A DNA stretch of 64,000 nt from the NCBI RefSeq assembly GCF_002157685.2, contig NZ_AP026738.1:186001-250000 (forward strand), read 5' to 3'. Both the position numbers and the translations under genes were made by a program. Each line of letters starts with the position of its first letter. Position 1 is the first letter of the stretch. The notes under the pieces are model-generated. The model ran no database searches, was not told the DNA's origin, and saw only the letters and a program-made list of their open reading frames with translations. The DNA comes from Comamonas thiooxydans. GTDB lineage: Bacteria > Pseudomonadota > Gammaproteobacteria > Burkholderiales > Burkholderiaceae_C. Shown one piece after another: positions 6,531 through 59,488 of this stretch.

Positions 6531-6588
6531 ACCAAGCTGACGCTGGGCTGGACTCTGCCAAGTCCCCACTTTCATAATGCGTTTCGTT

Positions 6589-6607
6589 GCCTGCTTTTTG
6601 AGCAGGC
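6589..6607 (+). terminator. Weak stem-loop after the Ala/Gln-rich gene
   Basis: GCCTGCT and AGCAGGC form a perfect 7-bp stem around a TTTTG loop. No run of T follows, so termination is doubtful. The rest of the 258-bp gap before the porin holds nothing else clear except the porin ribosome binding site. Confidence 0.3.
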
Positions 6608-6788
6608 TTCTCGGGTCGGAATTGGCAGCCCCGCTGCCAGCCATGTTCCGGCTGTCTTCAGTGCATCAGGCAGTGCCTGACTGCCTGTCATCGCCTCATC
6701 TCACAGGTCTTCGACCTTCTCTGTCTTCTGCTGTGCCAAGGGCTGGCTGCGGGGGCAGTGACTTCACAATTCAAGGAGAACCACCGGC

Positions 6789-44505: not shown

Positions 44506-45453
44506 TCAGAACAGCGAGCCCTGGGCCTTGGCCCGTATCAGGTCGGTCAGCAGTTCGTCGCGCGTGCGCTCCAGCTCCTCCTCGCGACGCATGCCGCGCG
44601 CCTCGGCCACGCCCTGCACCACACTGTCCTTGAGCGCCGCTGTCATGGCCGGATTGCCAAGATCGCGCCACCAGCTTTCGATGGGGCCGCCCAGGTGCTC
44701 CAGCAGATGCTGCATGCCGCCCTGTCCGCCAGACAGATGCAGGTTCATGAATGGCCCCATCAGCGCCCAGCGCAGGCCGGGGCCGTGGGCGATGGCCGTG
44801 TCAATGTCGCTGACGCTGGCTACCCCCTGGTCAACGAGGTGAAAGGCCTCGCGCCACAGCGCGGCCTGCAGGCGGTTGGCGATGTGGCCAGCGATCTCGC
44901 GCCGCACATGAATGGGGCGCTTGCCCAGCGCTGCGTAGAAGTCCATGGCACGCTGGATGCTGTCTGGCGAGGTGGCATCGCCACCACCCACTTCCACCAG
45001 CGGGATCAGGTGCGGCGGATTGAAGGGATGACCCAGAACCACGCGCTGCGGCGTCTTGCAGCGTACCTGCATACCGCTGACCGGCAGACCCGAGCTGCTG
45101 CTGGCCAGCAGTACCTGCGGCGGCGTGGCCGCGTCCATGCGCGCATAGAGGTCAGCCTTGAAGTCGGCGCGCTCGGGGCCGCTTTCCTGCACGAAGTCGC
45201 AGCCGTCCAGCGCACGCTCAAGTTCGGCGTCGAAGCGCAGGCGTTCGGGCGATGCTCCATCCGCCAGCCCCATGCGTTGCATGGTCGGCCAGTGGCGCTG
45301 CACCGCTTCGCGCAGGCGCTGCTCGGCGCCGGGTGCGGGATCGGTGGCCGTCACATCCAGGCCGCGCGCCAGGAAGAACGCAGCCCAGCTGGCACCGATC
45401 ACGCCGGTGCCGACCACGGCCACGTGCCGTATCGCGGGTGCGGCCGCGCTCAT
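44506..45453 (-). CDS. 3-hydroxyacyl-CoA dehydrogenase-family protein, carnitine 3-dehydrogenase-like
   Basis: NAD-dependent oxidation of a beta-hydroxy acid to a beta-keto acid. The 315 residues show a Rossmann start VAVVGTGVIGASWAAFFLARG, DFVQESGPERADFK, SSSSGLPVSGMQ, LGHPFNPPHLIPLVEV and the helical domain with IANRLQAALWREAFHLVDQGVAS and GPGLRWALMGPF. It resembles CdhA of Pseudomonas carnitine catabolism from memory. The start is fixed by an ATGA overlap with the binding-protein gene. BKACE two genes upstream would cleave its product. Confidence 0.87.
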   Translation of the reverse strand: MSAAAPAIRHVAVVGTGVIGASWAAFFLARGLDVTATDPAPGAEQRLREAVQRHWPTMQRMGLADGASPERLRFDAELERALDGCDFVQESGPERADFKADLYARMDAATPPQVLLASSSSGLPVSGMQVRCKTPQRVVLGHPFNPPHLIPLVEVGGGDATSPDSIQRAMDFYAALGKRPIHVRREIAGHIANRLQAALWREAFHLVDQGVASVSDIDTAIAHGPGLRWALMGPFMNLHLSGGQGGMQHLLEHLGGPIESWWRDLGNPAMTAALKDSVVQGVAEARGMRREEELERTRDELLTDLIRAKAQGSLF

Positions 45454-46658
45454 GATGTCTTCCATTGCGCGCAGCGTGTCTCGGCGCGTGTGGTCCAGGC
45501 GGCTTCGCCACGGATGGTTTCGACCACCTTGTAGTAGTCCCAGGGCTCTCTGGATTCGGCTGGCGTCTTCACCTGCATCAGATGCATGTCATGCACCATC
45601 AGGCCGTCGGCGCGCAGCCAGCCGTCCTTGACGAACATGTCGTTGAAACGGGTCTTCCTGAGCTGTTCCATCACCTTGGTGCCATCGTCCGTGCCCGCGG
45701 CCTGCACGGCCTTGAGGTACTGCAGCGTGGCGGAGTAGTCGCCCGCATGGAAGGAGGTGGGCATGCGCTTGTGCTTGTCGAAGAAGCGCCGCGCCCATGC
45801 GCTGGCCTCGGGGCTCTGGTTCCAGTACCAGCTGTCGGTGAGATACATGCCCTGTGCCGTCTTCAGGCCCAGGGCGTGCACGTCTTGAATGGTGATGATC
45901 ATGCCCGCCAGCTTCATCTTCTGCGCCAGTCCGAATTCCGCCGCCGATTTGATGGCGTTGACCGTGTCGCCGCCCGCGTTGGCCAGGGCCAGTACATCGG
46001 GTTTGGCCGCCAGAGCCTGCAGCATGAAGGACGAGAAGTCGCTGGCGCCCAGCGGGTGCTTGACCGCCCCGGCCACGTTGCCGCCGCCGGCTTCGAGCAC
46101 CTTGGCAGCATCGGCCTGAAGCGCATTGCCGAAGGCATAGTCGGCCGTCACGAAGAACCAGCGCTTGCCGCCGCTCTTGAGCACGGCGCTGGCCGTTCCG
46201 CGAGCCATGGCCACTGTGTCGTAGGCATACATGACCGTGTAGGGCGAGCACTGCTCGTTGGTGAGGCTGGAAGCACCCGAGCCGACCACGAAATAGGGCT
46301 TGCGCTTATCGCGCGCCACGCCCGCCATGGCAATGGCCGCGCCCGAGTTCACGCCGCCGATCAGCATGTCGAAGCGTTCCACGTCGAACCATTGGCGCGC
46401 CTTGGCGGCGGCGATGTCGGCCTTGTTCTGGTGGTCTGCCGCCACCAGCTCGATCTTCTTGCCGTTGATGGCGCCGCCCATGTCGGCGATGGCCATGCGT
46501 ATGGCCTCTGCGCCAGCCGGTCCGTCGTAGTCGCGGTACACGCCCGACATGTCGCTGATGAAGCCTATGCGTATCACATCGTCCGAAATCTGAGCTGCTG
46601 CCGTGGCCGCGCCGGCCAGCGTCACGGCGCCGGCCAGGGCCTTGCATGCGAAGTTCAT
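45450..46658 (-). CDS. LivK-type ABC transporter substrate-binding protein (orphan)
   Basis: Periplasmic binding protein of 402 residues with a signal peptide of about 22 residues (ATAAAQ). It has IRIGFISDMSGVYRDYDGPAGAEAIRMAI, VAADHQNKADIAAAKARQWFD and the two-lobed type I fold. No permease or ATPase genes adjoin it, so it must share a transporter encoded elsewhere. GAGGAGA precedes the ATG. It stands between BKACE and the dehydrogenase, so its ligand is probably the beta-hydroxy acid substrate of the pathway. Confidence 0.9.
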   Translation of the reverse strand: MNFACKALAGAVTLAGAATAAAQISDDVIRIGFISDMSGVYRDYDGPAGAEAIRMAIADMGGAINGKKIELVAADHQNKADIAAAKARQWFDVERFDMLIGGVNSGAAIAMAGVARDKRKPYFVVGSGASSLTNEQCSPYTVMYAYDTVAMARGTASAVLKSGGKRWFFVTADYAFGNALQADAAKVLEAGGGNVAGAVKHPLGASDFSSFMLQALAAKPDVLALANAGGDTVNAIKSAAEFGLAQKMKLAGMIITIQDVHALGLKTAQGMYLTDSWYWNQSPEASAWARRFFDKHKRMPTSFHAGDYSATLQYLKAVQAAGTDDGTKVMEQLRKTRFNDMFVKDGWLRADGLMVHDMHLMQVKTPAESREPWDYYKVVETIRGEAAWTTRAETRCAQWKTS

Positions 46659-46706
46659 GATGCTGTCTCCTCGTTGTTTTGCGAACTGAGCTGCGCCGTG
46701 CGCGGC

Positions 46707-47645
46707 TCAGGCCGCCTGTGCCATGGCGGCGGGCGCGAACGCGGGCAGCGGCGAGCCGCCGCGTTGCAGTCCCATGATCTGACGTGCTTCCTCGGGCGTG
46801 GCGGGCTCCATGTCGAGCTCGCGGATCAGCCGCACGATGCGCTCGGTCAGCTGAACATTGGTGGCCAGCTCGCCCTGGCGGTAGTAGAGGTTGTCCTCCA
46901 GACCCACACGCGCATGGCCGCCCAGCAGCAGCGCAGCCACATTGGCCTCCAGCTGCGAGGGCCCGATGCCGCTGACGCAGAAGATGCTGTTGGCGGGCAG
47001 AACGTCCACCATCTGCTGCAGGTAGCGCGGCGAGAACGGCATGGCGTTCTGGAAGTTGCGGTGGACATTCATCACCAGGTTGATGAAGTGCGGGGCTGCA
47101 TCGTGGTCTTCCTCGATCAGCGTCGTCACGTCCTGCAGGATATGGGTGTGGGCGAAGACTTCCCATTCTGGCTTGATGCCGCGCGCCTTCATGCCTACGG
47201 CCAGCTCGCGGCCCCGCGACAGCGGCGTGTCCATGAGGATCTCGCGCCCGCCGAAGCTCAGGTTCAGAGTGGTCGCATCCAGCGTGCACATCTCGGCGCC
47301 TGCATCCATGCCCTTGATGCGTTCCTCCCAGGCGATTTCCCAGCGCCCGCCCTGCAGCTCGCGCACCATGTCGCCGTGCACGCCGCCGCCCGTGGAGTTG
47401 TTGATCACGATGTCGCAGCCCGCAGCGCGGATGCGGGTGTTGATGTCGCGGTAGATGTCGGCATTGCAGGTGGCACCGTCGTCGGGCCGGCGCGCATGGA
47501 TGGCCGCCACGCTGGCGCCCGCATTGCAGCAGCGCACCACGTCTTCAGCGATCTCGTCCGGCTGGGTGGGGAGATGGGGGTTCTGCGATTTGTGGGCCAT
47601 GCCTCCAGTGGGGGCAATGGTCACGATCACCTTGCGCTTGCTCAT
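46707..47645 (-). CDS. Beta-keto acid cleavage enzyme (BKACE, 3-keto-5-aminohexanoate cleavage family)
   Basis: Zn-dependent TIM barrel that condenses a beta-keto acid with acetyl-CoA, giving acetoacetate and a new acyl-CoA. The 312 residues show VIVTIAPTGGMAHKSQNP at the start, the metal ligands in AAIHARRPDDGA, NNSTGGG, and the C-terminal GGHARVGLEDNLYY. The family includes Kce of lysine fermentation and the dehydrocarnitine cleavage enzyme. The carnitine-dehydrogenase-like neighbour points to a carnitine-like beta-hydroxy acid. CAGGAGA precedes the ATG. It is the first gene of the run, facing the Crp/Fnr regulator. Confidence 0.92.
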   Translation of the reverse strand: MSKRKVIVTIAPTGGMAHKSQNPHLPTQPDEIAEDVVRCCNAGASVAAIHARRPDDGATCNADIYRDINTRIRAAGCDIVINNSTGGGVHGDMVRELQGGRWEIAWEERIKGMDAGAEMCTLDATTLNLSFGGREILMDTPLSRGRELAVGMKARGIKPEWEVFAHTHILQDVTTLIEEDHDAAPHFINLVMNVHRNFQNAMPFSPRYLQQMVDVLPANSIFCVSGIGPSQLEANVAALLLGGHARVGLEDNLYYRQGELATNVQLTERIVRLIRELDMEPATPEEARQIMGLQRGGSPLPAFAPAAMAQAA

Positions 47646-47745
47646 GGCGTCTCCTGATGCGTGGGGTTGGGTCGTCAGCTATTATTTTTTTCACCCCCGC
47701 ATGAATCAGTCGTTGCGATGACATTTGACCTCGGGGTAAGTACGC

Positions 47746-47761
47746 AAGGAGCTTCACCATC
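47746..47761 (+). promoter_or_regulatory. Strong ribosome binding site placed before an ATC codon
   Basis: AAGGAG at 47746-47751 is followed by seven bases and then ATC at 47759, in frame with the Crp/Fnr gene. The spacing is ideal for a start codon, but no ATG, GTG or TTG occurs in this frame before 47852. Confidence 0.7.
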
Positions 47762-47851
47762 GCCCGCCATCACCGCTCAACGACCGCGGCCCGTCCCACC
47801 CTCGATGAACTGCTGTCCGGCTCTGCCTGGTTTCCCGCGCTCGACCTTGCC

Positions 47852-48481
47852 GTGCGCGAACGCGTGCGTGCCGAGATGCGCGAGGTGGACCTGCCCGCGG
47901 GCACTGCGCTGTGCCGTATGGGAGATGAGCCCCGACACTGGTATGGCGCCATCGAAGGGCTGCTCAAATGGTCGGTGAGCAGCGCCGACGGTCGCTCGGT
48001 TACGCTGGGAGGTCTCTCGGTGGGCAGCTGGTTCGGCGAGGGAACGGTGCTGCGCGGAGTGGCGCGCACGGCGGACGTGATCGCGCTGCGCGACAGCCGC
48101 GTGGCCTTGATGCCTGCCGAGGTCTTCGAGTGGTTGCGCGGCAGCGAGCGCAGCTTCGAAGCCTTTTTGCTGCGTCAGATCAACGAGCGAATGCACTGGT
48201 TCCTGGGCAACTTCGCGGCCCACCATTTGCTCGATACCGACAGCCAGGTGGCGCGCGCGCTGGTGGGCCTGTTCCACTCATGGCTGCATCCGGGAAGCGA
48301 CCCGCGCCTTCGGGTGTCCCAGGAGGAGATCGCCAACCTCTCGGGCCTGTCGCGCCAGCGCTGCAACGCAGCGCTGCGGCGCCTGGCGGCGGCCGGCCAG
48401 ATAGAGATCGAATACGGCGGCATCACCGTCATCGACCTGCCGCGGCTGCGCACGCGTGTGCACGCTGCGGCGTCGTTCTAG
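47852..48481 (+). CDS. Crp/Fnr-family transcriptional regulator (start uncertain, probably 47759)
   Basis: From GTG 47852 the protein is 209 residues: a cyclic-nucleotide-type beta roll (LPAGTALCRMGDEPRHWYGAIEGLLKWSV, GSWFGEG), a dimer helix and a winged helix (VSQEEIANLSGLSRQRCNAALRRLAAAGQIEIEYGGITV). There are no Fnr cysteines. The frame stays open 31 codons upstream, and those residues (ARPTLDELLSGSAWFPALDLAV) look like the normal start of this family. A good ribosome binding site precedes an ATC codon there. The 47852 form would lack the first helix. It is divergent from the BKACE run and is its likely regulator. Confidence 0.85.
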   Translation: MRERVRAEMREVDLPAGTALCRMGDEPRHWYGAIEGLLKWSVSSADGRSVTLGGLSVGSWFGEGTVLRGVARTADVIALRDSRVALMPAEVFEWLRGSERSFEAFLLRQINERMHWFLGNFAAHHLLDTDSQVARALVGLFHSWLHPGSDPRLRVSQEEIANLSGLSRQRCNAALRRLAAAGQIEIEYGGITVIDLPRLRTRVHAAASF

Positions 48482-48500: not shown

Positions 48501-49406
48501 TCACATGCTCTCGCTGTGCTCATGGTAGGCAGCGATGGCGTCCATCAGTTCCTGCAGCTGGACCGATACCTGCTGTTCCTCGCGCACCAGCATATAGCGG
48601 GGGCGCACTGCCCAGGCGTCGGTCAGCGGCACGCGGCAGACGCGCGGCAGGCCGCGGTAGCGCTGGGCCACGGTCTCGGGCACCACGGCCACGCCCACGC
48701 CTGCCGCGACCATGCGGCACATCGAGTCGAAGCTGGAAAGCTGTATGCGCAGCTTCAGCGTGGTGCCCAGTTGCTGGCTCAGCCGATCCAGAAAAGTCTG
48801 CAGAGTGCTGCCACGGTGCATGCCCACAAAGCGCTCGTGCAGCACATCGGCAAAGGCCACGCTGCTCATGTCCGCCCAGCGCGCGGTGTCGGGGGTCACC
48901 AGCACCAGCCGGTCAGTGCTGAAATGCAGCACGCGCAGGCCGTACGTGTCCACCTCGCCGGCCACGATGCCCAGGTCGGCGCGGCCGTCGCGGATGTCGG
49001 TGGCAATGCCGGCATTGGGGCGCTCCTGCAGGTCCACGCTGATGTGTGGGTGCTGGGTGAGGTAGGCCGCAAGTATGTCGGGCATGAACTCCGTCACGGC
49101 CGTGGTGTTGGCGAATACGCGCACATGGCCGCGCAGGCCCGCGCCGTACTCCTGCAGGTCGGCTTGCAATTGCTGCGAATGCTGCAGCATGGCGCGCGCA
49201 TGGTGCAAAAAGGCCTCGCCGGGTGCCGACAGTTTTACCCCTCTAGCCTCTCGTATCAGCAAAGGCATGCCGGCCTGTTCCTCCAGTGCCCTGACACGTG
49301 CGCTGGTGGCTGCAAGCGATAGATGAGACTGTTCGGAAGCCCTTGTCAGGCTTCCTGTCTGTGCTATCAAAACAAAGAGTCTTAAATCCTTGAGATCGAA
49401 TTGCAT
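48501..49406 (-). CDS. LysR-family transcriptional regulator
   Basis: The 301-residue regulator has the standard helix-turn-helix (LKDLRLFVLIAQTGSLTRASEQSHLSLAATSARVRALEEQAGMPLLIRE) and a ligand domain (about 90-290). It faces the Bug-MaoC-acyl-CoA dehydrogenase run across 134 bp and is the likely activator of that catabolic operon. The ligand is presumably the dicarboxylate-like substrate or a CoA intermediate. Confidence 0.92.
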   Translation of the reverse strand: MQFDLKDLRLFVLIAQTGSLTRASEQSHLSLAATSARVRALEEQAGMPLLIREARGVKLSAPGEAFLHHARAMLQHSQQLQADLQEYGAGLRGHVRVFANTTAVTEFMPDILAAYLTQHPHISVDLQERPNAGIATDIRDGRADLGIVAGEVDTYGLRVLHFSTDRLVLVTPDTARWADMSSVAFADVLHERFVGMHRGSTLQTFLDRLSQQLGTTLKLRIQLSSFDSMCRMVAAGVGVAVVPETVAQRYRGLPRVCRVPLTDAWAVRPRYMLVREEQQVSVQLQELMDAIAAYHEHSESM

Positions 49407-49426: not shown

Positions 49427-49464
49427 AATCAAGTCAAGGCTTCGGAAAAACAAAAGGCTTGATT
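49427..49464. promoter_or_regulatory. Inverted repeat in the LysR-Bug gap
   Basis: AATCAAG (49427-49433) and CTTGATT (49458-49464) are perfect inverted arms 24 bases apart, with further imperfect symmetry inside (TCAAGGCTT, AAGGCTTGA). A possible LysR site pair. Confidence 0.4.
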
Positions 49465-49540
49465 CCAATATCAGAGATTGTGCACAGAGCAGGTGCCAGC
49501 GAGCATAGGGCTATCAACCCCAAAAGAGGAGACAGTTGCC

Positions 49541-50554
49541 GTGCCAGTCCGATCCGCCCCGCCCTCCACTCCATCGGTGTCGCGCCGCAGCCTCTGTGCC
49601 GGCGCCCTGCTGACCCTGGGCCTGCCGACCTGGGCACAGGCCTCCTATCCCGCCCGCCCCATCGTGCTGGTGGTGCCCCAGGCAGCGGGCGGAACCAATG
49701 ACATCGTGGGCCGCATCGTGGCACAGAAATTGGGCGAGAAGCTGTCCGTGGGCACGGTGGTCGAGAACCGCCCCGGTGCGGGCGGCAACATCGGTACCCA
49801 GGCCGTGGCCAAGGCCGCCAGGGACGGCCATACATTGCTGATGACCATCAGCAGCAGCCAGGCCATCAATCCCGCGCTCTACAAGTCGCCGGGCTTCGAT
49901 CCCGTGGGCGACTTCACGCCGGTGAGCATGATCGGCGCCGTGCCCAATGTGCTGCTGGCCCATCCATCCTTTCCCGCACGGACCGTTCCCGAAATGCTGG
50001 CCCTGGCCAGGTCCAAGCCCGGCGAGTTGCAATATGCATCGGCAGGCAACGGTACGCTCAACCACCTGCTGGGCGAGATGCTTAACCAGATGGCCGGCGT
50101 GCAACTGCAGCATGTCCCCTACAAAGGCGTGGCGCCCGCACTTAACGATGTGCTGGGCGGGCAACTGCCGCTGCTGTTCGGCAGCCTGCCGTCCACGCTG
50201 CAGTACATCAAGTCGGGCAAATTGCGGGCACTGGCCGTCAGCAGCGCAGCACGTTCGCCCGTGCTGCCCGACGTGCCATCGCTGGGTGAGTTCGTGCCCG
50301 GCTACAACGGCACGCTGTGGATTGCCCTGTTCGCGCCGCGCGGCCTGCCGCCTGCGGTGATGAGCCGGCTGCGCGAAGGCATGCAGCAGGCCATGGCGGA
50401 CAAGGACATGCGCGCCCAGTTGCAGGCCCAGGGCGTGGAGCTTGCGGGCACGCCAGAGCGTCAAGTCACACCCGACGAGCTGGCTGCCGTCCTCAAGCAG
50501 GACATCTCCAAATGGGCGCAGATCGTGAAGACCTCCGGCGCCACGGTGAACTGA
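49541..50554 (+). CDS. Bug-family substrate-binding protein
   Basis: Periplasmic binding protein of 337 residues with a twin-arginine-like start (SRRSLCAGALLTLGLPTWAQA), then PIVLVVPQAAGGTNDIVGRIVAQ, VVENRPGAGGNIGTQA and LQHVPYKGVAPALNDVLGGQLPL. It begins at GTG 49541 after AGAGGAGA. An orphan without TctAB. First gene of the catabolic run, so its ligand is probably the carbon source of the pathway. Confidence 0.93.
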   Translation: MPVRSAPPSTPSVSRRSLCAGALLTLGLPTWAQASYPARPIVLVVPQAAGGTNDIVGRIVAQKLGEKLSVGTVVENRPGAGGNIGTQAVAKAARDGHTLLMTISSSQAINPALYKSPGFDPVGDFTPVSMIGAVPNVLLAHPSFPARTVPEMLALARSKPGELQYASAGNGTLNHLLGEMLNQMAGVQLQHVPYKGVAPALNDVLGGQLPLLFGSLPSTLQYIKSGKLRALAVSSAARSPVLPDVPSLGEFVPGYNGTLWIALFAPRGLPPAVMSRLREGMQQAMADKDMRAQLQAQGVELAGTPERQVTPDELAAVLKQDISKWAQIVKTSGATVN

Positions 50555-50576
50555 ATCCCTTCCAGCACTTCCGTCC

Positions 50577-51467
50577 ATGAACCCGAACACTGTCCAGATC
50601 GACGCAGCCGCCCTGACCAAGCTCCAGTCTTGGCAGGAGCGCAGCGAGACCATGTCCGACATCATCACCGCCGCTCCGCTGCGTGCCCTCTCGGCCACGC
50701 TGGATCGTGATGACCCGGTGCCTGAAGATGGCTCAGCCGTGCCTGCGCTGTGGCACTGGCTGTACTTTCTGCCGCATGCGCGCCAGAGCGAGATTGGTCC
50801 CGACGGGCATGCGAGGCGCGGTGGCTTTCTTCCGCCAGTGCCGCTGCCGCGCCGCATGTGGGCCGGCGGACGGCTGCGCTGGGAAGCGGGCAATCCGCTG
50901 CGCGTGGGGCAGCAGGTGCAGCGCGTCTCCACCATCCGCAGCGTGAAGCACAAGACCGGACGCTCGGGCGAGCTGCTGTTCGTGCTGGTCGAACACCGTT
51001 TCTCGAACCAGGACGGTTTGGCGCTGGTCGAGGAGCATGACATCGTCTACCGCGCCGCTGCCCAAGCGGGCGATCCCGCGTCCACGCCGCAGAAGCCACC
51101 GCTGGACGGCCAGCAAACCTGGTCCCGCACCATCGTTCCCGACGACGTGCTGCTGTTCCGTTACTCGGCGCTGACCTTCAACGGCCACCGCATCCACTAC
51201 GACCGTCAGTACGTGACCCAGGTCGAGGGCTACCCAGGCCTGATCGTGCATGGTCCGCTGATTGCCACGCTGCTGCTCGATCTGCTGCGCCGCCAGCTGC
51301 GGGGCGCCAGGGTGGTCGCGTTCGAATTCAGGGCCTTGAGGCCGACCTTCGACCTGCACCCTTTCAGCGTGCACGGCAAGCCGCGCGAGGACGGCAGGAC
51401 CATCGACCTGTGGGCACAGGACCACGAAGGGCTTCTGACCATGCAGGCCACGGCCACCGTGGCTTGA
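50577..51467 (+). CDS. MaoC/FAS1-type acyl-CoA hydratase (mesaconyl-C4-/itaconyl-CoA hydratase-like)
   Basis: Adds water across an enoyl-CoA double bond. The 296-residue protein has an N-terminal FAS1-type dehydratase half (HWLYFLPHARQSEIGPDGHARRGGFLPPVPLPRRMWAGGRLRW) and a C-terminal hot-dog half with the active-site pattern FNGHRIHYD and EGYPGLIVHGP. This architecture is that of mesaconyl-C4-CoA and itaconyl-CoA hydratases. A CoA-transferase and a CitE-type lyase in the same run match the itaconate pathway. It follows the Bug gene by 22 bp. Confidence 0.86.
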   Translation: MNPNTVQIDAAALTKLQSWQERSETMSDIITAAPLRALSATLDRDDPVPEDGSAVPALWHWLYFLPHARQSEIGPDGHARRGGFLPPVPLPRRMWAGGRLRWEAGNPLRVGQQVQRVSTIRSVKHKTGRSGELLFVLVEHRFSNQDGLALVEEHDIVYRAAAQAGDPASTPQKPPLDGQQTWSRTIVPDDVLLFRYSALTFNGHRIHYDRQYVTQVEGYPGLIVHGPLIATLLLDLLRRQLRGARVVAFEFRALRPTFDLHPFSVHGKPREDGRTIDLWAQDHEGLLTMQATATVA

Positions 51468-51479
51468 AGACTGAAACCC

Positions 51480-51518
51480 ATAGCTGATAGCGCTTGCTGG
51501 ACAAGCGTTTGTCGTCAG
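51480..51518. repeat. Repeat family A, copy 5
   Basis: ATAGCTGATAGCGCTTG, loop CTGGA, then CAAGCGTTTGTCGTCAG. The inner CGCTTG/CAAGCG pairs perfectly and the outer part only partly. It lies between the hydratase and acyl-CoA dehydrogenase genes, inside the operon. Confidence 0.7.
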
Positions 51519-51528
51519 AAGGCTTGAA

Positions 51529-52695
51529 ATGATCGAACACACGAGCTCCAACAACCACCACGAAATCCGCGATGCCATCCGCGCGCTGTGCGCCGAGTTT
51601 CCCGACGAGTATTTCCGCAAGATCGACGAACAGCGCGCCTATCCCGAGGCCTTCGTCAACGCGCTGACCCAGGCCGGCTGGCTGGCCGCGCTGATCCCGC
51701 AGGAGTACGGAGGCTCGGGCCTGGGCCTGACCGAGGCCAGCGTCATCATGGAGGAGATCAACCGCTGCGGCGGCAACTCGGGCGCCTGCCATGGCCAGAT
51801 GTACAACATGGGCACGCTGCTGCGCCATGGCTCCACGGCGCAGAAGGAGAAGTACCTGCCGCGCATCGCCTCGGGCGAATGGCGGCTGCAGTCCATGGGC
51901 GTGACCGAGCCGACCACGGGCACGGACACCACCAAGATCAAGACCAGCGCCGTGAAGAAGGACGGGCGCTACGTGGTCAATGGCCAGAAGGTCTGGATCA
52001 GTCGCATCCAGCACAGCGACTTCATGATCCTGCTGGCGCGCACCACGCCGCTGGCCGAGGTGAAGAAAAAGAGCGAGGGCATGTCCATCTTCATGGTCGA
52101 TCTGCGCGAGGCCGAGAAGAAGGGCATGACCGTGCGCCCCATTCTCAATATGGTCAACCACGAGACCAACGAGCTGTTCTTCGAGGATCTGGAGATCCCC
52201 GAGGAGAACCTGATCGGCGAGGAAGGCAAGGGCTTCAAGTACATCCTCGATGGCCTGAACGCCGAGCGCACGCTGATTGCGGCCGAGTGCATAGGCGACG
52301 GTTACTGGTTCCTGGACCGTGTGACCAACTACGTGCGCGACCGCCAGGTGTTCGGCCGCCCCATCGGCCAGAACCAGGGCGTGCAGTTCCCGATTGCCGA
52401 TGCCTTCATCGAGGTCGAGGCCGCCAATCTCATGCGCTGGAAGGCCTGTGAACTGTTCGATGCGAACCAGGCCATGGGCGCTCAAGCCAACATGGCCAAG
52501 TACCTGGCGGCCAAGGCCAGCTGGGAGGCCGCCAATGCCTGCATCCAGTTCCACGGCGGCTTCGGCTTTGCCTGCGAGTACGACGTGGAGCGCAAGTTCC
52601 GCGAGACCCGCCTCTATCAGGTGGCGCCGATCTCCACCAACCTGATCTATTCCTATGTGGCCGAGCACATCCTCGGGCTGCCCCGTTCCTTCTGA
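51529..52695 (+). CDS. Acyl-CoA dehydrogenase
   Basis: FAD enzyme introducing an alpha,beta double bond into an acyl-CoA. The 388 residues cover the three domains: MGVTEPTTGTDTTKIKT and YVVNGQKVWISR bind FAD, and AYDVERKFRETRL-like CEYDVERKFRETRLYQVAP ends the fold. The usual catalytic Glu in the IYEGT motif is absent (VAPIST there). Glu246 in GLNAERTLIAAE occupies the position used by isovaleryl-CoA dehydrogenase, which suggests a branched or long substrate. In this operon it may act on a methylsuccinyl-like CoA ester; that is inference. Confidence 0.9.
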   Translation: MIEHTSSNNHHEIRDAIRALCAEFPDEYFRKIDEQRAYPEAFVNALTQAGWLAALIPQEYGGSGLGLTEASVIMEEINRCGGNSGACHGQMYNMGTLLRHGSTAQKEKYLPRIASGEWRLQSMGVTEPTTGTDTTKIKTSAVKKDGRYVVNGQKVWISRIQHSDFMILLARTTPLAEVKKKSEGMSIFMVDLREAEKKGMTVRPILNMVNHETNELFFEDLEIPEENLIGEEGKGFKYILDGLNAERTLIAAECIGDGYWFLDRVTNYVRDRQVFGRPIGQNQGVQFPIADAFIEVEAANLMRWKACELFDANQAMGAQANMAKYLAAKASWEAANACIQFHGGFGFACEYDVERKFRETRLYQVAPISTNLIYSYVAEHILGLPRSF

Positions 52696-52700
52696 AATGA

Positions 52701-52830
52701 AGTACCCCCTGAGTCGCTACACGCCTTCCCGTTGCACGGCGCCCCCCAAGGGGGACGACACCCTCGGCGCGGGGCGGCGCGGCCGGCTCAGGCCCTTCCT
52801 CGGTGTCCCTGGTCTTTGGCCGCGCCAGTT
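52701..52830 (+). repeat. Repeat family B, copy 2
   Basis: CCCCCTGAGTCGCTACACG, CCTTCCC, then GGGGGACGACACCC, a GC-rich stretch and CCTTCCTCGGTGTCCCTGG. It begins 9 bp past the acyl-CoA dehydrogenase stop codon. CCCCC-AA-GGGGG inside can form a hairpin. It fills the 171-bp gap before the CoA-transferase gene and matches the element at 21432-21497 in order and placement. Confidence 0.65.
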
Positions 52831-52866
52831 GCACAGGCTAGCGCTGAAGCGCAATGGATTTTCAAG

Positions 52867-54063
52867 ATGAAAAAACAAAATCTTCGTCCACTGGACGGCA
52901 TCACCGTCGTTTCGCTGGAACATGCGGTGGCAGCACCGTTTTGCACGCGCCAGCTCGCCGACCTGGGCGCGCGCGTGATCAAGGTGGAGCGTCCGGGAAA
53001 TGGCGATTTCGCGCGCGGCTACGACCAGCGCGTCAACGGCCAATCCTCGCACTTCACCTGGATCAACCGCAGCAAGCAAAGCCTGGCGCTCGATCTCAAG
53101 CGGCCCGACGCACTCGAGGCGCTGATGCAACTGCTCGAAGGCGCTGACGTGCTGGTGCAGAACCTGGCACCCGGCGCTGCCGCGCGCATGGGGCTGTCCT
53201 GGGAGGTGCTGAAGGCCCACAACCCCAAGCTCATCGTCTGCGACATCAGCGGCTACGGTGCCGACGGCCCCTACCGCGACAAGAAGGCCTATGACCTGCT
53301 GATCCAGAGCGAGGCGGGGTTTCTCTCGGTCACGGGCACGCCCGAGGCGCCGTCCAAGGCCGGCATCTCGGTGGCCGACATCGCGGCTGGGATGTACGCC
53401 TACACCAATATTCTTTCGGCCCTGCTGCTGCGAGGCCGCACGGGCGAGGGCAGCCATATCGACGTCTCCATGCTGGAGGCGCTGGGCGAGTGGATGGGTT
53501 ACCCCATGTACTACGCCTTCGACGGCGCGCCGCCACCGCCGCGCACCGGCGCGTCGCACGCCAGCATCTACCCCTACGGACCCTTCGAGGCCGGTGACGG
53601 GGGCACGGTGATGCTGGGCCTGCAGAACGAACGCGAGTGGAAGATCTTCTGCGAGCAGGTGCTGCTGCAGCCCGCGCTGGCCGTTGATGCGCGCTTCGAC
53701 AGCAATGCGCAGCGCAACGCCCACCGCGAGGAGCTGCGCGCGCTGATCCTGGGTGTGTTCAACGCGCTGGATGCGGCCCAGGTCGTGCAGCGCCTGGATG
53801 CGGCCGGCATTGCCAATGCGCGCGTCAACGACATGGCGGGCCTGTGGAACCACCCCCAACTGGCCGCACGCCAGCGCTGGCGCAGCGTGGCCACGCCGGT
53901 CGGGCCGGTACAGGCGCTGCTACCGCCGGGCGCCAACAGCGCCTTTGACTACCGCATGGAGGCTGTGCCCTCCGTGGGCGAGCACAGCGAGGCCATTCTG
54001 GCCCATCTGGGCTGGTCGGCCGAGCGCATCCGCGCTCTGTACGCCGAAGAAGCGACCCTGTGA
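52867..54063 (+). CDS. Class III CoA-transferase (CaiB/BaiF family)
   Basis: Moves CoA between carboxylic acids through an aspartyl anhydride. The 398 residues begin with LDGITVVSLEHAVAAPFCTRQLADLGARVIKVERP, and the catalytic Asp143 lies in KKAYDLLIQSEAG. GSHIDVSMLEALGEWMGYP is typical. In the operon it would activate the free acid, with succinyl-CoA a likely donor, feeding the dehydrogenase, hydratase and lyase. ATG 52867; no strong ribosome binding site. Confidence 0.92.
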   Translation: MKKQNLRPLDGITVVSLEHAVAAPFCTRQLADLGARVIKVERPGNGDFARGYDQRVNGQSSHFTWINRSKQSLALDLKRPDALEALMQLLEGADVLVQNLAPGAAARMGLSWEVLKAHNPKLIVCDISGYGADGPYRDKKAYDLLIQSEAGFLSVTGTPEAPSKAGISVADIAAGMYAYTNILSALLLRGRTGEGSHIDVSMLEALGEWMGYPMYYAFDGAPPPPRTGASHASIYPYGPFEAGDGGTVMLGLQNEREWKIFCEQVLLQPALAVDARFDSNAQRNAHREELRALILGVFNALDAAQVVQRLDAAGIANARVNDMAGLWNHPQLAARQRWRSVATPVGPVQALLPPGANSAFDYRMEAVPSVGEHSEAILAHLGWSAERIRALYAEEATL

Positions 54064-54097
54064 AAGCTGTGCGCAGCGTATGCGCGGGAGTGATTCC

Positions 54098-55462
54098 ATG
54101 AAGAACGAGACCCAAGTGAGCATCCATCCGCTGGCCCGTTTCGCTGCCACACTGCGCTGGGACGACGTCCCCGCCGCCGTGCAGCGCCGCACCGAAGACC
54201 TCTGGGTGGACTGGTTCGGCTCCGTGCTCGCAGGCCAGGGCGCGCGCCCCGTGCAGAGCATCGCGCGCTTTGCGCTGTCCCAGGGACCGGCGCAAGGGCC
54301 TTGCGAGATCCTGGGCAGTGCCGCCACCACCTCGCCCATGATGGCGGCCCTGGCCAATGCCGCGGCCTCGCATGTGGCCGAGCAGGACGATGTGCACAAC
54401 GGCTCGGTCTTCCACCCGGCCGCCGTGGTCTTCCCGCCCGCGCTGGCCGTGGCCCAGAGCATCGGTGCCAGCGGCGCCCAACTCATGGCCGCCTGCGTGG
54501 CCGGCTACGAGGTCGGCATCCGCGTGGGCGAGTTCCTGGGCCGCAGCCACTACCGCATCTTCCACACCACGGCCACGGCCGGCACGCTGGCTGCTGCGGC
54601 CGCCGTGGGCCGCCTGCTGGGCCTCACGCCCGCGCAGATGCAGCATGCTTTCGGCTCGGCCGGCACGCAGTCGGCGGGGCTGTGGGAATTCCTGCGCACG
54701 GGCGCCGACAGCAAGCAACTGCACACGGCCCATGCAGCCGCCGCAGGCCTGATGTCGGCGTACCTGGCCAAAGACGGTTTCACGGGCGCGCAGGACATCT
54801 TCACCGGGCCGCAGGGCCTGGCGGCCGGCATGTCCACGGACGCCGATCCCACGCGCCTCACGGACGGCATAGGCTCCCGCTGGGCCACGGCCGAGACCTC
54901 GTTCAAGTGGCATGCCTCCTGCCGCCACACGCACCCGGCCGCCGACGCGCTGCTGCAGGTCATGCAGGACCACGGCCTGACTCCCGCCGACCTGGCCCAG
55001 GTCACCTGCCATGTGCATCAGGGCGCCATCGACGTGCTGGGCCCGGTGGTCAGGCCGAGCACTGTGCACCAGAGCAAGTTCTCCATGGGCACGGTGCTGG
55101 CGCTGGCGGCGCGTCACGGCCACGCGGGGCTGACGGAGTTTGACCGCGACTATCTGGCACAGGAAACCGTGGAGCTGCGCGACAAGGTGAGCATGGAGCT
55201 TGATGCCGAGGTCGACGCGGCCTATCCCCGGCGCTGGATCGGCAAGGTCAGCGTGCAGACCACGGATGGCCGTTTGCTCATGGGCCGTGTCGACGAACCC
55301 AAGGGCGACCCCGGCAACACGCTGTCGCGCGAGGAAATTACGGCCAAGGCGCTGCGGCTGATCGCCTATGGCGGAGCCCTGCAGGACGCTGCTGCGCAGG
55401 CTACCGTGGGGCGGCTGTGGCAGGTCGCGCAATGGCCGCGCGTGCAGCGCCTGCTGGACTGA
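54098..55462 (+). CDS. MmgE/PrpD-family protein (2-methylcitrate dehydratase / cis-aconitate decarboxylase-like)
   Basis: The 454-residue protein has the all-helical first domain and the alpha/beta second domain of the MmgE/PrpD family. ANAAASHVAEQDDVHNGSVFHPAAVV is the active-site segment, and FKWHASCRHTHPAADALL the second. Family members dehydrate 2-methylcitrate, isomerise or decarboxylate tricarboxylates (cis-aconitate decarboxylase gives itaconate). No prpB or prpC is near, so methylcitrate is unlikely. It may decarboxylate or dehydrate the imported acid. CGGGAG precedes ATG 54098. It starts 35 bp after the CoA-transferase. Confidence 0.9.
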   Translation: MKNETQVSIHPLARFAATLRWDDVPAAVQRRTEDLWVDWFGSVLAGQGARPVQSIARFALSQGPAQGPCEILGSAATTSPMMAALANAAASHVAEQDDVHNGSVFHPAAVVFPPALAVAQSIGASGAQLMAACVAGYEVGIRVGEFLGRSHYRIFHTTATAGTLAAAAAVGRLLGLTPAQMQHAFGSAGTQSAGLWEFLRTGADSKQLHTAHAAAAGLMSAYLAKDGFTGAQDIFTGPQGLAAGMSTDADPTRLTDGIGSRWATAETSFKWHASCRHTHPAADALLQVMQDHGLTPADLAQVTCHVHQGAIDVLGPVVRPSTVHQSKFSMGTVLALAARHGHAGLTEFDRDYLAQETVELRDKVSMELDAEVDAAYPRRWIGKVSVQTTDGRLLMGRVDEPKGDPGNTLSREEITAKALRLIAYGGALQDAAAQATVGRLWQVAQWPRVQRLLD

Positions 55463-55481
55463 GGCTGAGTTTTTCGCTTCC

Positions 55482-55499
55482 CGCCGGCCCCGGCCGGCG
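55482..55499. other. GC-rich hairpin between the MmgE/PrpD and Bug genes
   Basis: CGCCGGCC and GGCCGGCG pair perfectly around CC. No T run follows; likely an intercistronic stabilising or processing element. Confidence 0.55.
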
Positions 55500-55565
55500 A
55501 ATCCATGGGAAAGGCGCCGTCACAGAGCGCCTCCCGCTTTCACCCAAGTGCACAGGAGACAAACC

Positions 55566-56564
55566 ATGCAAAGCACAAACCCTTTCCGCCGCCGCCTCGT
55601 TTACGCGGCGGCCGCCGCCTGCGCGCTGGCGGCATGCGCCGGCGCCCAAGCCAGGTCCTGGCCGGAGAAGCCGGTTGTCCTCGTCGTGCCCTACAGCGCG
55701 GGCGGCCCCACCGACGTGGTGGCGCGCCTGCTGGCCGTGCCCATGGGCCAGGTGCTGGGCCAGAGCGTGCTGGTCGAGAACACCGTGGGTGCGGGCGGCA
55801 CCATCGCACCGGCCCGCGTGGCCAAGGCCAAGGCCGACGGCTACACCATCCTCATCCACCACATGGGCATGGCCACGGCGCCTGCGCTGTACAAGAAGCT
55901 GCCCTATGACCCGCTCAAGGACTTCGAGTACATCGGCCAGGTGCTGGACGTGCCCATGACCCTGCTGTCGCGCAAGGACTTCCCGGCCAACAACTTCGCC
56001 GAGCTGATGGACTACGTGAAGAAGAACCAGGACAAGGTCTCGCTGGCCAATGCAGGTATTGGCGCTGTCTCCCAGCTGTGCGGCATGCTGTTCATGCACC
56101 AGGCGGGCGTCAAGCTCACCACCGTGCCCTACAAGGGCGCAGGCCCGGCCATGAACGACCTCATGGGCGGCCAGGTGGACCTGCTGTGCGACCAGACCAC
56201 GCAGACCGTGCCCGTGATCAAGGACGGCCAGCGCGCCAAGGTCTTCGGCGTGACCACGCCCAAGCGCCTGTCCTCGCTGCCCGACATCCCCACGCTGGAC
56301 GAGCAGGGCCTCAAGGGCTTCGACGTCAAGGTCTGGCATGGCATGTACGCGCCCAAGGGCACGCCCAAGGAAGTGGTCATGGCCATCAACAAGGCGCTGA
56401 ACGTGGCCATCAAGGACGAGAACGTCAAAAAGCGCATCGCCGAACTCAGCTCCGACCTGGTCACGCCCGACAAGGCCACGCCGGAAGGCCTGCGCACCCA
56501 CCTGCAGGCCGAGGTCGCGCGCTGGGACAAGGTCATCAAGGCCGCAGGCGTCTCGGCCGAATAA
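55566..56564 (+). CDS. Bug-family substrate-binding protein
   Basis: Second Bug protein of this run, 332 residues, signal peptide to about residue 29 (AGAQARS). VVLVVPYSAGGPTDVVARLLAVPM, VLVENTVGAGGTIAPARVA and TTVPYKGAGPAMNDLMGGQVDLLCDQT are the signatures. CAGGAGA precedes the ATG. It lies between MmgE/PrpD and the CitE-type gene. Two distinct Bug proteins in one operon suggest two related ligands. Confidence 0.93.
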   Translation: MQSTNPFRRRLVYAAAAACALAACAGAQARSWPEKPVVLVVPYSAGGPTDVVARLLAVPMGQVLGQSVLVENTVGAGGTIAPARVAKAKADGYTILIHHMGMATAPALYKKLPYDPLKDFEYIGQVLDVPMTLLSRKDFPANNFAELMDYVKKNQDKVSLANAGIGAVSQLCGMLFMHQAGVKLTTVPYKGAGPAMNDLMGGQVDLLCDQTTQTVPVIKDGQRAKVFGVTTPKRLSSLPDIPTLDEQGLKGFDVKVWHGMYAPKGTPKEVVMAINKALNVAIKDENVKKRIAELSSDLVTPDKATPEGLRTHLQAEVARWDKVIKAAGVSAE

Positions 56565-56587
56565 ACCGCTCTCCCAAGGACATCCGC

Positions 56588-57460
56588 ATGCACGATCTGG
56601 CGCGACAGGCCACTTCCTTTCTCTTCGTCCCCGCCACGCGGCCCGAGCGCCTGGGCAAGGCCCTGGACAGCGGCGCCGACATGGTCATCGCCGACTGGGA
56701 GGACGCCGTGTCCCCGGCCGACAAGGACGGCGCCCGCCAGGCGCTGGCCCAGGCCGTGGAAGCGCTGGAAGGCGCGGAACGCGCACGCTTGCTGGTGCGC
56801 ATCAACGCCGAAGGCACACCCTGGCATGCCGAGGACCTGCGCGTGCTGGCGCAGCTGGTGGAGCAGGGCGTGGCCGGCGCCATGGTTGCCAAGGCCGAGC
56901 GTGCCCAGACCCTGCATGCGGTGGCCCGGGCTGCGGGGGCGCAAGCGGCCTTGCTGCCCCTGATCGAGAGCGTGGCCGGCCTGGACGCGGCCGATGCCCT
57001 GGCTGCCGCGCCCCAGGTGGTGCGACTGGCTTTCGGCCACCTGGACTTTCAGGTCGATGCGGGCATGGCCTGCGGCGAGGACGAAGAGGAGCTGCTGCCC
57101 ATGCGCATGGCCCTGGTCCTGGCCTCGCGCCGCTCCGGCATTGGCGCGGCCGTGGACGGCGTGACCGTGGATACGCGCAACCCCGAACGATTGGCATTGG
57201 ACGCGGCACGCGCCAGGCGCATGGGCTTTGGCGGCAAGCTGTGCATTCACCCGGCCCAGGTGCAGCCTCTGCACGCCGTCTTCGACCCCGACCCCGCCAC
57301 CGTGGCCCACGCGCAGCGCCTGCGCCAGGCGCTGGCTGAGGCGGGCGGCGGCGTCTGCGTGCTGGACGGCCGCATGGTCGATGCGCCCGTGCTCCACATG
57401 GCACAGCAGACGTTGGCTCGTCACGCCTGGGCACAGCAGCGCATGCATCGCAAGACATAG
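56588..57460 (+). CDS. CitE-like lyase (HpcH/HpaI aldolase/citrate lyase family)
   Basis: Cleaves a beta-hydroxyacyl-CoA such as citramalyl-, malyl- or citryl-CoA. The 290-residue TIM barrel shows SFLFVPATRPERLGKALDSGADMVIADWEDAVSP at the start (CoA and metal region), LLVRINAEGTPWHAEDL, the Mg-ligand glutamate in LLPLIESVAGL and the C-terminal GFGGKLCIHPAQVQPL. With the hydratase and CoA-transferase this gives the three steps of itaconate breakdown to pyruvate and acetyl-CoA. The exact substrate is not shown by sequence. Confidence 0.9.
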   Translation: MHDLARQATSFLFVPATRPERLGKALDSGADMVIADWEDAVSPADKDGARQALAQAVEALEGAERARLLVRINAEGTPWHAEDLRVLAQLVEQGVAGAMVAKAERAQTLHAVARAAGAQAALLPLIESVAGLDAADALAAAPQVVRLAFGHLDFQVDAGMACGEDEEELLPMRMALVLASRRSGIGAAVDGVTVDTRNPERLALDAARARRMGFGGKLCIHPAQVQPLHAVFDPDPATVAHAQRLRQALAEAGGGVCVLDGRMVDAPVLHMAQQTLARHAWAQQRMHRKT

Positions 57461-57531
57461 TCTTATCAGACGTTGCCGGGTGCCGCGGTTTGCGCCAGAT
57501 TCATGCTGCTTCAAGACACAAAGGAAAGAGC

Positions 57532-58389
57532 ATGAACCAGGCTTTGGTATGCGTGGTGACGGGGGCCAGCCGTGGCGTGGGCCGTGGCGTGGCGCTGGCG
57601 CTGGGCGCGGCGGGGGCCACCGTCTATGTCACCGGGCGCAGCGTGAAGGAGGGCGACTCGCCCTTGCCCGGCACGGTGGGAAGGACGGCTGCCGATGTGA
57701 CGGCTGCCGGCGGCAACGGCATTGCCGTGGCCTGTGACCATGGAGACGATGTTCAGGTGGCAGCGCTGTTCGAGCGCGTGCGTCGCGAGCATGGCCGGCT
57801 CGACATTCTGGTCAATTGTGCGATTGCGATTCCCGATCCGCTGACCGTGCCCGGCCCGTTCTGGCAAAAGCCGCTGGAGATGACCGGACTGCTCGATGTG
57901 GGACTGCGCTCCACCTACGTGGCCAGCCATTTCGCGGCCGGCCTGCTGATCGCTGCGCGCGGCCTGGTGGTCAATATCTCGTCGGCAGGCAGTCGCTGCT
58001 ATATGCATGGGCCGGCCTATGGAGCGGGCAAGGCCGGCACGGACAAGATGAGCTTCGACATGGCCCACGATTTCAAGCCTGCTGGCGTGAGTGTGGTTTC
58101 GCTCTGGCCCGGACTGGTCAGGACCGAACGTTCCGAACGCGTCTGCGCGGCCGAACCCGACAAGTACGGCGATAGCTTCGACAGCGCCGAAACGCCGCAA
58201 TTCATAGGCCGGGTGGTACTGGCCTTGCATGGCGATGCCGACTGCCTGGAAAAGCGCTCTGGCGGCGTGTTCTATACGGCCGAACTGGCCAGCCAGTATG
58301 GCGTTCAGGACATCGATGGCGCGCAGCCTGCGTCGCCGCGCGCCTATTTCGGCGCGCCACCGGAGTTCAGCCCGGTGGTGGTCGAATAA
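57532..58389 (+). CDS. Short-chain dehydrogenase/reductase
   Basis: NAD(P)-dependent oxidoreductase of 285 residues. The cofactor loop is TGASRGVG (10-17), NCAIAI replaces the usual NNAG, and the catalytic pair is Tyr163-x3-Lys167 (AYGAGKAG) after NISSAG. It resembles the DHRS1-like subgroup. AAGGAAA precedes ATG 57532. It follows the CitE gene by 71 bp and may be the last gene of the run. Substrate unknown. Confidence 0.88.
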   Translation: MNQALVCVVTGASRGVGRGVALALGAAGATVYVTGRSVKEGDSPLPGTVGRTAADVTAAGGNGIAVACDHGDDVQVAALFERVRREHGRLDILVNCAIAIPDPLTVPGPFWQKPLEMTGLLDVGLRSTYVASHFAAGLLIAARGLVVNISSAGSRCYMHGPAYGAGKAGTDKMSFDMAHDFKPAGVSVVSLWPGLVRTERSERVCAAEPDKYGDSFDSAETPQFIGRVVLALHGDADCLEKRSGGVFYTAELASQYGVQDIDGAQPASPRAYFGAPPEFSPVVVE

Positions 58390-58472: not shown

Positions 58473-58901
58473 GTGTCTGCTTCTGTCTCCCTTTCCCGCC
58501 GCTGCTGTCTGCATTTCTCCTTTTCGCTGCCCCTGGCCCTGGGCTTGTCGGCTTGTGCCACGACCACTCCTGAACAAAGCCAGGACGAGCTGATCCAGCG
58601 CTTTTACGCGCTGATGGCGGCCGGTGATTTCGACACCTGCATTGCCCTGATCTCGGCACGCAATATTTCCAGCGGGCAACTGGCGAGTTTTGAGCAAAAG
58701 CTGCGCCGCATGTTGACAGGCGCTAAGGGAATGATCGACTCCAAGGGCGGCCTGGCCAAGGTGGAAGTGGTGGAAAGAAAAGTTTCCGAGGAGGAGCAGG
58801 TCATCAAGCTCAGGGTGCTGGTCAGCTATCGCAATGGCAGCACCCGCCGCGAGCGCATCAATCTGGTCCAGGAAGAAGGCGTCTGGAAAGTGCTGCTGTG
58901 A
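58473..58901 (+). CDS. Small putative lipoprotein with a DUF4878/NTF2-like fold
   Basis: The 142-residue protein starts at GTG 58473 and has a lipoprotein signal ending LGLSAC (Cys28). The mature part looks like an NTF2-like single domain: QDELIQRFYALMAAGDFDTCIALIS, then beta strands ending VQEEGVWKVLL. Function unknown. Its TGA overlaps the ATG of the next gene, so the two are co-translated and may act together in the envelope. Confidence 0.75.
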   Translation: MSASVSLSRRCCLHFSFSLPLALGLSACATTTPEQSQDELIQRFYALMAAGDFDTCIALISARNISSGQLASFEQKLRRMLTGAKGMIDSKGGLAKVEVVERKVSEEEQVIKLRVLVSYRNGSTRRERINLVQEEGVWKVLL

Positions 58902-59488
58902 TGCTTGCGCGGCTGACAATGGCCGCTGTGATCGCTGTGTGGGCCTGCTGTGATGGCCTGGCTTTTGCAATGCCGCCATTGCCGCCGCAGGCTGCTCCTG
59001 GCGATCTGATCTTTCGCCGGGGGACGGAAAACGTCAGCCACCTGGTGCAAGCCGTGGACCGTGGTGACTTCAGCCATGTGGGCATGCTGGTGGGACGGCC
59101 CGGTCAGTGGCAGGTGTTGCATGCCACACCGTCCGAGCGCCCGGGTCAGGCGGATGCCGTGGTGCTGGATTCGCTGGATTTTTTTCTGGACGCTCGGCGC
59201 GCCCAGGCCTATCGCCTGTATCAGGTCGCTTCCGACCCCGACACACGTGAGCGGGCCGTGGCCTGGGCCATGGCGCAGCAGGGCAAGCCGTTTCAGCTAC
59301 AGGGAGACGCGGAGGCTCTGTATTGCACCACGCTGGTCTGGCAGGCCTGGCAGCAAGGCGGTATGGATCTCGGGGTGGTGTTCACCAAGGTGGAGCTGCC
59401 GGTGCTCGGCGGGCGCTACCTGCTGCCCGGCCAGCTGCTGCACTCATCCCGCCTGCGCCCGCTGACGCCCTTGCTGTCCTTGCACTAG
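58901..59488 (+). CDS. YiiX/YebB-like NlpC/P60-family cysteine hydrolase
   Basis: The 195-residue protein has a signal peptide (AVIAVWACCDGLAFA) and the permuted papain-like fold of YiiX/YebB proteins: PGDLIFRRG, His59 in FSHVGMLVG, and the likely nucleophile Cys142 in ALYCTTLVWQAW. In this subgroup His precedes Cys. Members may cut peptides, amides or lipid thioesters; the substrate here is unknown. ATG 58901 is preferred to GTG 58898 because TGATG couples it to the lipoprotein gene. It ends 9 bp from the convergent livF. Confidence 0.85.
   Translation: MLARLTMAAVIAVWACCDGLAFAMPPLPPQAAPGDLIFRRGTENVSHLVQAVDRGDFSHVGMLVGRPGQWQVLHATPSERPGQADAVVLDSLDFFLDARRAQAYRLYQVASDPDTRERAVAWAMAQQGKPFQLQGDAEALYCTTLVWQAWQQGGMDLGVVFTKVELPVLGGRYLLPGQLLHSSRLRPLTPLLSLH

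Follow-up and report, generated by a model that had tools for sequence, protein, structure and literature searches.

A predicted itaconate and methylsuccinate catabolic operon with its own TTT-family receptor genes in Comamonas thiooxydans

What is broken down by the run of plus-strand genes that lies in a 64,000-nucleotide stretch of the Comamonas thiooxydans chromosome (contig NZ_AP026738.1, positions 186,001 to 250,000)? This whole stretch is called the window here, and coordinates follow its numbering. A sequence-only reading had described the run as a candidate undescribed operon for C5-dicarboxylates, in a combination of genes that it did not recognise. The nine genes that it named were all found as long open reading frames in the order it gave, and their families agree with Pfam: a divergent LysR-type regulator, a Bug-type periplasmic receptor (Bug1), a hydratase, an acyl-coenzyme A (CoA) dehydrogenase, a CoA-transferase, an MmgE/PrpD protein, a second receptor (Bug2), a CitE-like lyase and a short-chain dehydrogenase/reductase (SDR). 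Very probably, in our view, the locus is a catabolic operon for itaconate and methylsuccinate, of the type found in Pseudomonas aeruginosa and Cupriavidus necator, with receptors of the tripartite tricarboxylate transporter (TTT) family for uptake. The catabolic core is already known; the uptake side is an unproven variant.

In P. aeruginosa PA7 (locus L054), a divergent LysR gene and the genes for Ich, Mcd, Msi, Ict and Ccl form one cluster. The window LysR is 44.3% identical to its PA7 counterpart, and the five enzymes match theirs over nearly full length, with identities of 46.5% for Ich, 79.1% for Mcd, 59.6% for Msi, 70.3% for Ict and 45.1% for Ccl. All of the five genes by which this cluster type is recognised (ich, mcd, ict, msi and ccl) are present together in the window, on one strand and within 6.9 kb of a 5.91 Mb genome that forms a single contig. 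From Bug1 to Ccl the successive gaps are 22, 61, 171, 34, 103 and 23 bp, lengths that depend on start codons which were our choice for Bug1 (GTG), the transferase and the lyase; such spacings are operon-like. The gene run is beyond chance, since the order hydratase-dehydrogenase-transferase-isomerase-Bug2-lyase is kept in 20/20 fetched same-genus loci and the full set of five enzymes is present in 68/80 Pseudomonas/Stutzerimonas loci. Here, the same-genus set draws on 23 further genomes in which the hydratase was matched, 20 of them counted (G015, G026 and G033, on short contigs, were left out); the Pseudomonas loci, the 80 top matches among 261 to a PA0878-like query, are a sample biased to P. 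aeruginosa-like clusters. According to the available text of Gonner et al. 2025 (PMC12290011), all five functions have been assayed with P. aeruginosa or C. necator proteins, partly via earlier work, and the set is published with purified-enzyme assays for P. aeruginosa, C. necator and Paraburkholderia xenovorans; even the single TTT receptor beside the C. necator cluster is already in print there. Consequently, the locus can hardly be called undescribed.

Which reactions would the five enzymes carry out? Judged from the functions of their homologues, Msi (54098-55462, plus strand, MmgE/PrpD family) would convert (S)- into (R)-methylsuccinate, and the class III CoA-transferase Ict (52867-54063, plus strand, Pfam CoA_transf_3) would move CoA from succinyl-CoA to itaconate or (R)-methylsuccinate. 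Mcd (51529-52695, plus strand), a predicted (RS)-methylsuccinyl-C4-CoA dehydrogenase, would then oxidise methylsuccinyl-C4-CoA to mesaconyl-C4-CoA, with the electrons presumably passing to the electron-transfer flavoprotein. The putative itaconyl-CoA/mesaconyl-C4-CoA hydratase Ich (50577-51467, plus strand, FAS1_DH/MaoC-type) would form (S)-citramalyl-CoA from itaconyl-CoA or mesaconyl-C4-CoA, which the putative lyase Ccl (56588-57460, plus strand, CitE-like) would cleave to acetyl-CoA and pyruvate. For Ich, the only PDB sequence matches are 8khg, an "Itaconyl-CoA hydratase" (2e-66), and 8huc, and its YSA-TFNGHRIHYD block, which we take to hold the catalytic residues, is kept in comparison with the PA7 enzyme; for Ccl, the best PDB matches are 9nzb and 8khl (1.5e-50). 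The transferase, hydratase and lyase are of the itaconate type, as had been proposed from the sequence.

The earlier suggestion that the extra dehydrogenase points to methylsuccinate is borne out as well, since its orthologue is a methylsuccinyl-C4-CoA dehydrogenase that yields mesaconyl-C4-CoA from both methylsuccinyl-CoA isomers (PMC12290011, available text). The same source reports that Ict prefers (R)- over (S)-methylsuccinate and also accepts itaconate. A methylsuccinyl-CoA dehydrogenase of the ethylmalonyl-CoA type was set aside on account of the 79% match to PA7 Mcd. Four aligned Mcd sequences have the stretch GLNAER in common; by comparison with isovaleryl-CoA dehydrogenase, the catalytic Glu presumably lies within it.

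The MmgE/PrpD protein had been linked to the decarboxylase that makes itaconate, and this link did not hold. Its orthologue is an (S)-(R)-methylsuccinate isomerase, inactive on itaconate, mesaconate, citraconate, the aconitates and (R)-malate in the assays given in the available text of PMC12290011, where seven residues are named for a proposed mechanism and an mcd gene adjoins every isomerase gene that was found. All seven (H88, E91, H102, Y148, H152, K202 and K266 in PA0881 numbering) recur in the window protein as well as in 95/95 related loci, and the gene lies in the same cluster as mcd. It is very improbable, in our judgement, that the cluster breaks down some other branched or tricarboxylic acid, for example by turning aconitate into itaconate with the MmgE/PrpD protein. 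This alternative could appeal to the membership of cis-aconitate decarboxylases in the same family, with a PDB match (6r6t) at 3.8e-15, and to identities of Ich and Ccl that fall to 45-47%; against it stand the 59.6% identity of the protein to Msi of a proven cluster, the 7/7 residues, the inactivity of Msi orthologues on cis- and trans-aconitate, and the identity of Mcd (79%) and Ict (70%) to enzymes whose substrates are methylsuccinate and its CoA ester. The PDB ranking has the Bacillus subtilis "IRG1" at 1.2e-44, the IDS epimerase at 5.9e-35 and the true cis-aconitate decarboxylases at about 3e-15, so that an Irg1/CadA function was rejected; the "IRG1" label of the B. subtilis protein is itself doubted in PMC12290011. 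A tricarboxylate as substrate, which had also been considered from the sequence, found no support in the analysis. The residue aligned with PA0881 K208 is Lys in 73/95 isomerases and His in 22/95, including the window and 20/20 same-genus loci; it is not among the residues named for the mechanism in the available text of PMC12290011.

Does the SDR at the 3' end (57532-58389, plus strand, Pfam adh_short) belong to the pathway, as the sequence-only reading had it? It lies on the same strand, 71 bp behind ccl with no terminator-like site in between, follows Ccl directly in the window and in 5/5 other fetched loci that have both genes, and is 95-97% conserved in those loci. These features would suit a real pathway enzyme, perhaps one that uses a hydroxylated C5 acid (itatartarate or citramalate, for instance), but we regard this as quite unlikely. 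Of 61 relatives, this genome counted among them, 11 carry the SDR, and 5 of these 11 have no hydratase match; in 4 of the 5 it adjoins livF-livG-livH with no C5 genes in the fetched stretch, and the fifth has no liv match. It stands behind Ccl in 5/20 same-genus clusters, and at an identity of at least 60% it is missing from the other 15/20 and from all 55 family loci, absences that are less firm than the presences because at most 40 candidates were scored per genome. (The family sample is 55 of 67 match rows; the window's own row, G006 and ten rows on short contigs or surplus were dropped.) Therefore, only part of the genus has the SDR and the C5 cluster side by side, and the SDR, which occurs without the cluster and is absent from most clusters, was rejected as an operon member; it is best seen as an independent neighbour outside the unit.

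Then, how would the substrates enter the cell? In P. aeruginosa, the transporter IctPQM, of the tripartite ATP-independent periplasmic (TRAP) type, has been proven necessary for growth on itaconate (PMC12599236, available part). No match to IctP, IctQ or IctM was found in the window at 1e-8. The enzyme cluster is not defined by IctPQM, since C. necator, as described in the available text of PMC12290011, also lacks it. Instead, the window holds Bug1 (49541-50554, plus strand) and Bug2 (55566-56564, plus strand), both with the TctC domain of TTT receptors (Pfam, 225.7 and 223 bits, respectively) and 35% identical to each other; the closest other Bug of the genome to Bug2 is 50% identical. The loop motif P-[FY]-x-A-G-G-x-x-D of such receptors (PMC5812351) reads PYSAGGPTD in Bug2 and PQAAGGTND in Bug1, whose Q departs from it.

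We counted receptor genes within 9 kb of 150 isomerase genes (20 same-genus, 55 family, 69 Pseudomonas/Stutzerimonas, 5 plasmid and 1 other-order), with identities of at least 55% for Bug2, 60% for Bug1 and 40% for IctP. Relatives of Bug2 were found at 44/150 loci (20/20 same-genus, 21/55 family, 0/69 Pseudomonas/Stutzerimonas, 3/5 plasmid, 0/1 other-order) and relatives of IctP at 66/150 (0/20, 4/55, 61/69, 0/5 and 1/1, respectively), and the two occurred together at 0/150. Bug1 was present at 2/20 same-genus, 4/55 family and 1/5 plasmid loci. None of the three receptors was found at 0/20 same-genus, 8/69 Pseudomonas/Stutzerimonas, 2/5 plasmid and 0/1 other-order loci. Among 25 five-gene family clusters, 14 have Bug2, 3 have IctP and 8 have neither. 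The plasmid loci are 5 of 20 records.

Based on these patterns, Bug2 is probably a C5-dicarboxylate receptor and Bug1 a candidate for a second one. Bug2, and probably Bug1, would catch C5-dicarboxylates in the periplasm and pass them to TctA/TctB membrane proteins encoded elsewhere. The TctC family accounts for 130 match rows in the genome, of which at least 2 come from a single gene split in halves and one is a short fragment. TctA was matched three times, twice strongly. The best TctA/TctB candidate would be the lone tctBA pair at about 969985-972000 of the chromosome, whose TctA is one of the two strong matches and which has no TctC-family row near it (the nearest is at 959840-960643); by analogy with TphC and TpiBA of Comamonas, Bug2 probably works with this distant pair. 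Orphan receptors in comparable numbers are on record, with 100 TctC against 2 TctA in C. testosteroni (PMC5812351, available part). We somewhat favour the view that in Comamonadaceae and relatives the place of IctP is taken by TTT-family receptors, Bug2 and also Bug1, that are devoted to C5-dicarboxylates and share one TctBA channel serving many pathways.

The enzymes could also be as assigned while both Bug proteins serve other substrates, such as aspartate or unrelated acids, and stand in the cluster by chance. This is possible but rather doubtful. The 130 TctC-family rows and the presence of Bug1 in only 2/20 same-genus clusters speak for it, as does the aspartate with which BugD was crystallised (PMC5812351, available part), BugD being the nearest protein of solved structure to Bug2 (53% identical over 300 residues); on the other hand, Bug2 lies between msi and ccl in 20/20 same-genus loci, and its relatives near the isomerase in family and plasmid loci are always without IctP. 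The kinship with BugD also counts in favour of the C5 reading: by chemistry, though not as a binding result, itaconate and methylsuccinate are succinates substituted at position 2, just as aspartate is. A search for BugD in 399 family genomes (5 candidates scored in each) gave 3 relatives at 1e-115, the best 62% identical and none recognisable as Bordetella, and no itaconate enzyme was found in their surroundings.

No TTT receptor for itaconate or C5-dicarboxylates, no two receptors inside such an operon and no consistent replacement of IctP were found among the matches listed by one full-text library, where subscription journals are mostly missing. On the TRAP side, Pseudomonas sp. GD03944 (L055, 15678-17479) has an IctP-like receptor gene (72% to PA7) followed by a VOC/Rdo-like and an acyl-CoA synthetase-like gene, with no IctQ or IctM match, and this IctP may be an orphan receptor. 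IctM matches were found in only 3/69 Pseudomonas/Stutzerimonas loci with the isomerase.

We also considered how the operon may be controlled. The divergent LysR (48501-49406, minus strand, Pfam HTH_1 and LysR_substrate) is a probable itaconate/methylsuccinate-responsive regulator of the cluster and would activate the operon in response to itaconate or a ligand further down the pathway. ItcR of Yersinia pseudotuberculosis, a LysR regulator of another cluster type, responds to itaconate (PMC11275114, available part). In the gap between LysR and the first gene, an exact TTC-N9-GAA box was found in 10/20 loci with a LysR at least 55% alike (shuffle mean 0.46, largest 2) and in 52/75 loci with a LysR 40-54% alike (shuffle mean 2.05, largest 6); this excess is not a probability, because the shuffles preserve base composition only and the loci are related. 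A promoter scan gave no promoter-like site, and terminator-like sites numbered 4 against 5.2 expected.

Several observations weigh against the picture drawn so far. Ich and Ccl are the most diverged members, with identities to PA7 far under those of Mcd and Ict, so that a substrate shift is possible. In addition, Ccl scores 144.6 bits with the NCBIfam equivalog model NF038242 (RipC_Ccl), short of the cut-off of 375. Another lyase function was considered on this ground; however, PA7 Ccl itself (155.6 bits) misses the same cut-off, as does the lyase of the plasmid locus L135 (142.5 bits), so the model is undecisive for the function and does not cover this Ccl variant. The window gap holds no exact LysR-type box but only a form with one mismatch (TTC-N9-AAA, 49438..49459), and such forms are common in shuffles (mean 7.7/20). 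A LysR of at least 70% identity stands beside the cluster in 5/20 same-genus loci and, as given above, Bug1 in still fewer; with 15/20 clusters lacking such a LysR, regulation differs within the genus. Finally, 30/55 family loci have neither Bug2, Bug1 nor IctP at the set thresholds, and the separation of Bug2 from IctP is largely a matter of taxonomy in a biased sample.

Among the same-genus clusters without LysR, 8 of 15 were viewed upstream of ich; 7 have divergent genes and 1 has none under the filter. In these seven (L025, L026, L028, L034, L036, L041 and L042), ich lies back to back with SDR-, MaoC- or enoyl-CoA hydratase-like genes, identities that are our reading of the letters, and the insertion place of the C5 cluster varies within the genus. 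In L042 (G021, about 5750-6715) the hydratase was matched as two separate pieces, 89 and 93% identical, which suggests an insertion or a break in the gene. On an Acinetobacter pittii plasmid (L138, NZ_CP135160.1), a relative of the isomerase (52%) adjoins a gene for a transporter of the major facilitator superfamily, which brings the kinds of uptake gene seen next to the set to three; the dehydrogenase, the lyase and part of the hydratase lie on the opposite strand. Upstream of the operon, at 44506-48481 of the window, there are a 3-hydroxyacyl-CoA dehydrogenase-family gene, a LivK-type receptor, a BKACE gene and a Crp-type regulator, which presumably resemble a carnitine-type catabolic set. 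Downstream, at 58473-59488, the gene of a small DUF4878 protein overlaps the start of a YaeF/YiiX-type (C92) papain-like amidase gene, and this pair is kept beside the SDR in close relatives.

The locus, at first an unknown operon, is now assigned to a known pathway nearly gene by gene. Annotations that recur across Comamonas would be corrected with it: the MmgE/PrpD protein, 91% identical to Comamonas entries, would change from "2-methylcitrate dehydratase" to methylsuccinate isomerase and the generic acyl-CoA dehydrogenase to Mcd. Bug2 becomes a named and cheaply testable candidate for C5 uptake in betaproteobacteria without IctPQM. If the receptor assignment is true, it would be the first TTT uptake route for itaconate and methylsuccinate, and the IctP without Q and M in Pseudomonas sp. 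GD03944 would follow the same "receptor only" logic.

How does the window compare with known systems? The P. aeruginosa cluster PA0877-PA0886 (read in PA7) has the same divergent LysR, Ich, Mcd, Msi, Ict and Ccl, 44-79% identical, with the IctPQM transporter and a small RdoPA (VOC, vicinal oxygen chelate) gene in between, whereas the window has two Bug receptors, no match to IctP, IctQ, IctM or Rdo, and Ict before Msi. C. necator E6A55_22575-22600, compared by its description in the available text of PMC12290011, has the same five enzymes and one TTT receptor close by, against two inside the window operon. In Cupriavidus metallidurans (L134) and Cupriavidus sp. (L137), a Bug2 relative of 61-62% identity is on the opposite strand. 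The Yersinia-type ict-ich-ccl set (RipABC) covers the same three itaconate steps; however, it is described in the available text of PMC12290011 as convergent and without Mcd and Msi, and the window lyase is far under the RipC cut-off. For terephthalate uptake in Comamonas, TphC is likewise encoded in the catabolic operon and its membrane partners TpiBA elsewhere (PMC8556258, available part), although the ligand is aromatic and the pathway not homologous. The plasmid of Comamonadaceae bacterium OTU4NAUVB1 (CP099607.1, L135), which differs from the window in having no SDR and in placing Msi at the end and not before Bug2, carries all eight genes in the order LysR (minus strand), Bug1, Ich, Mcd, Ict, Ccl, Bug2 and Msi.

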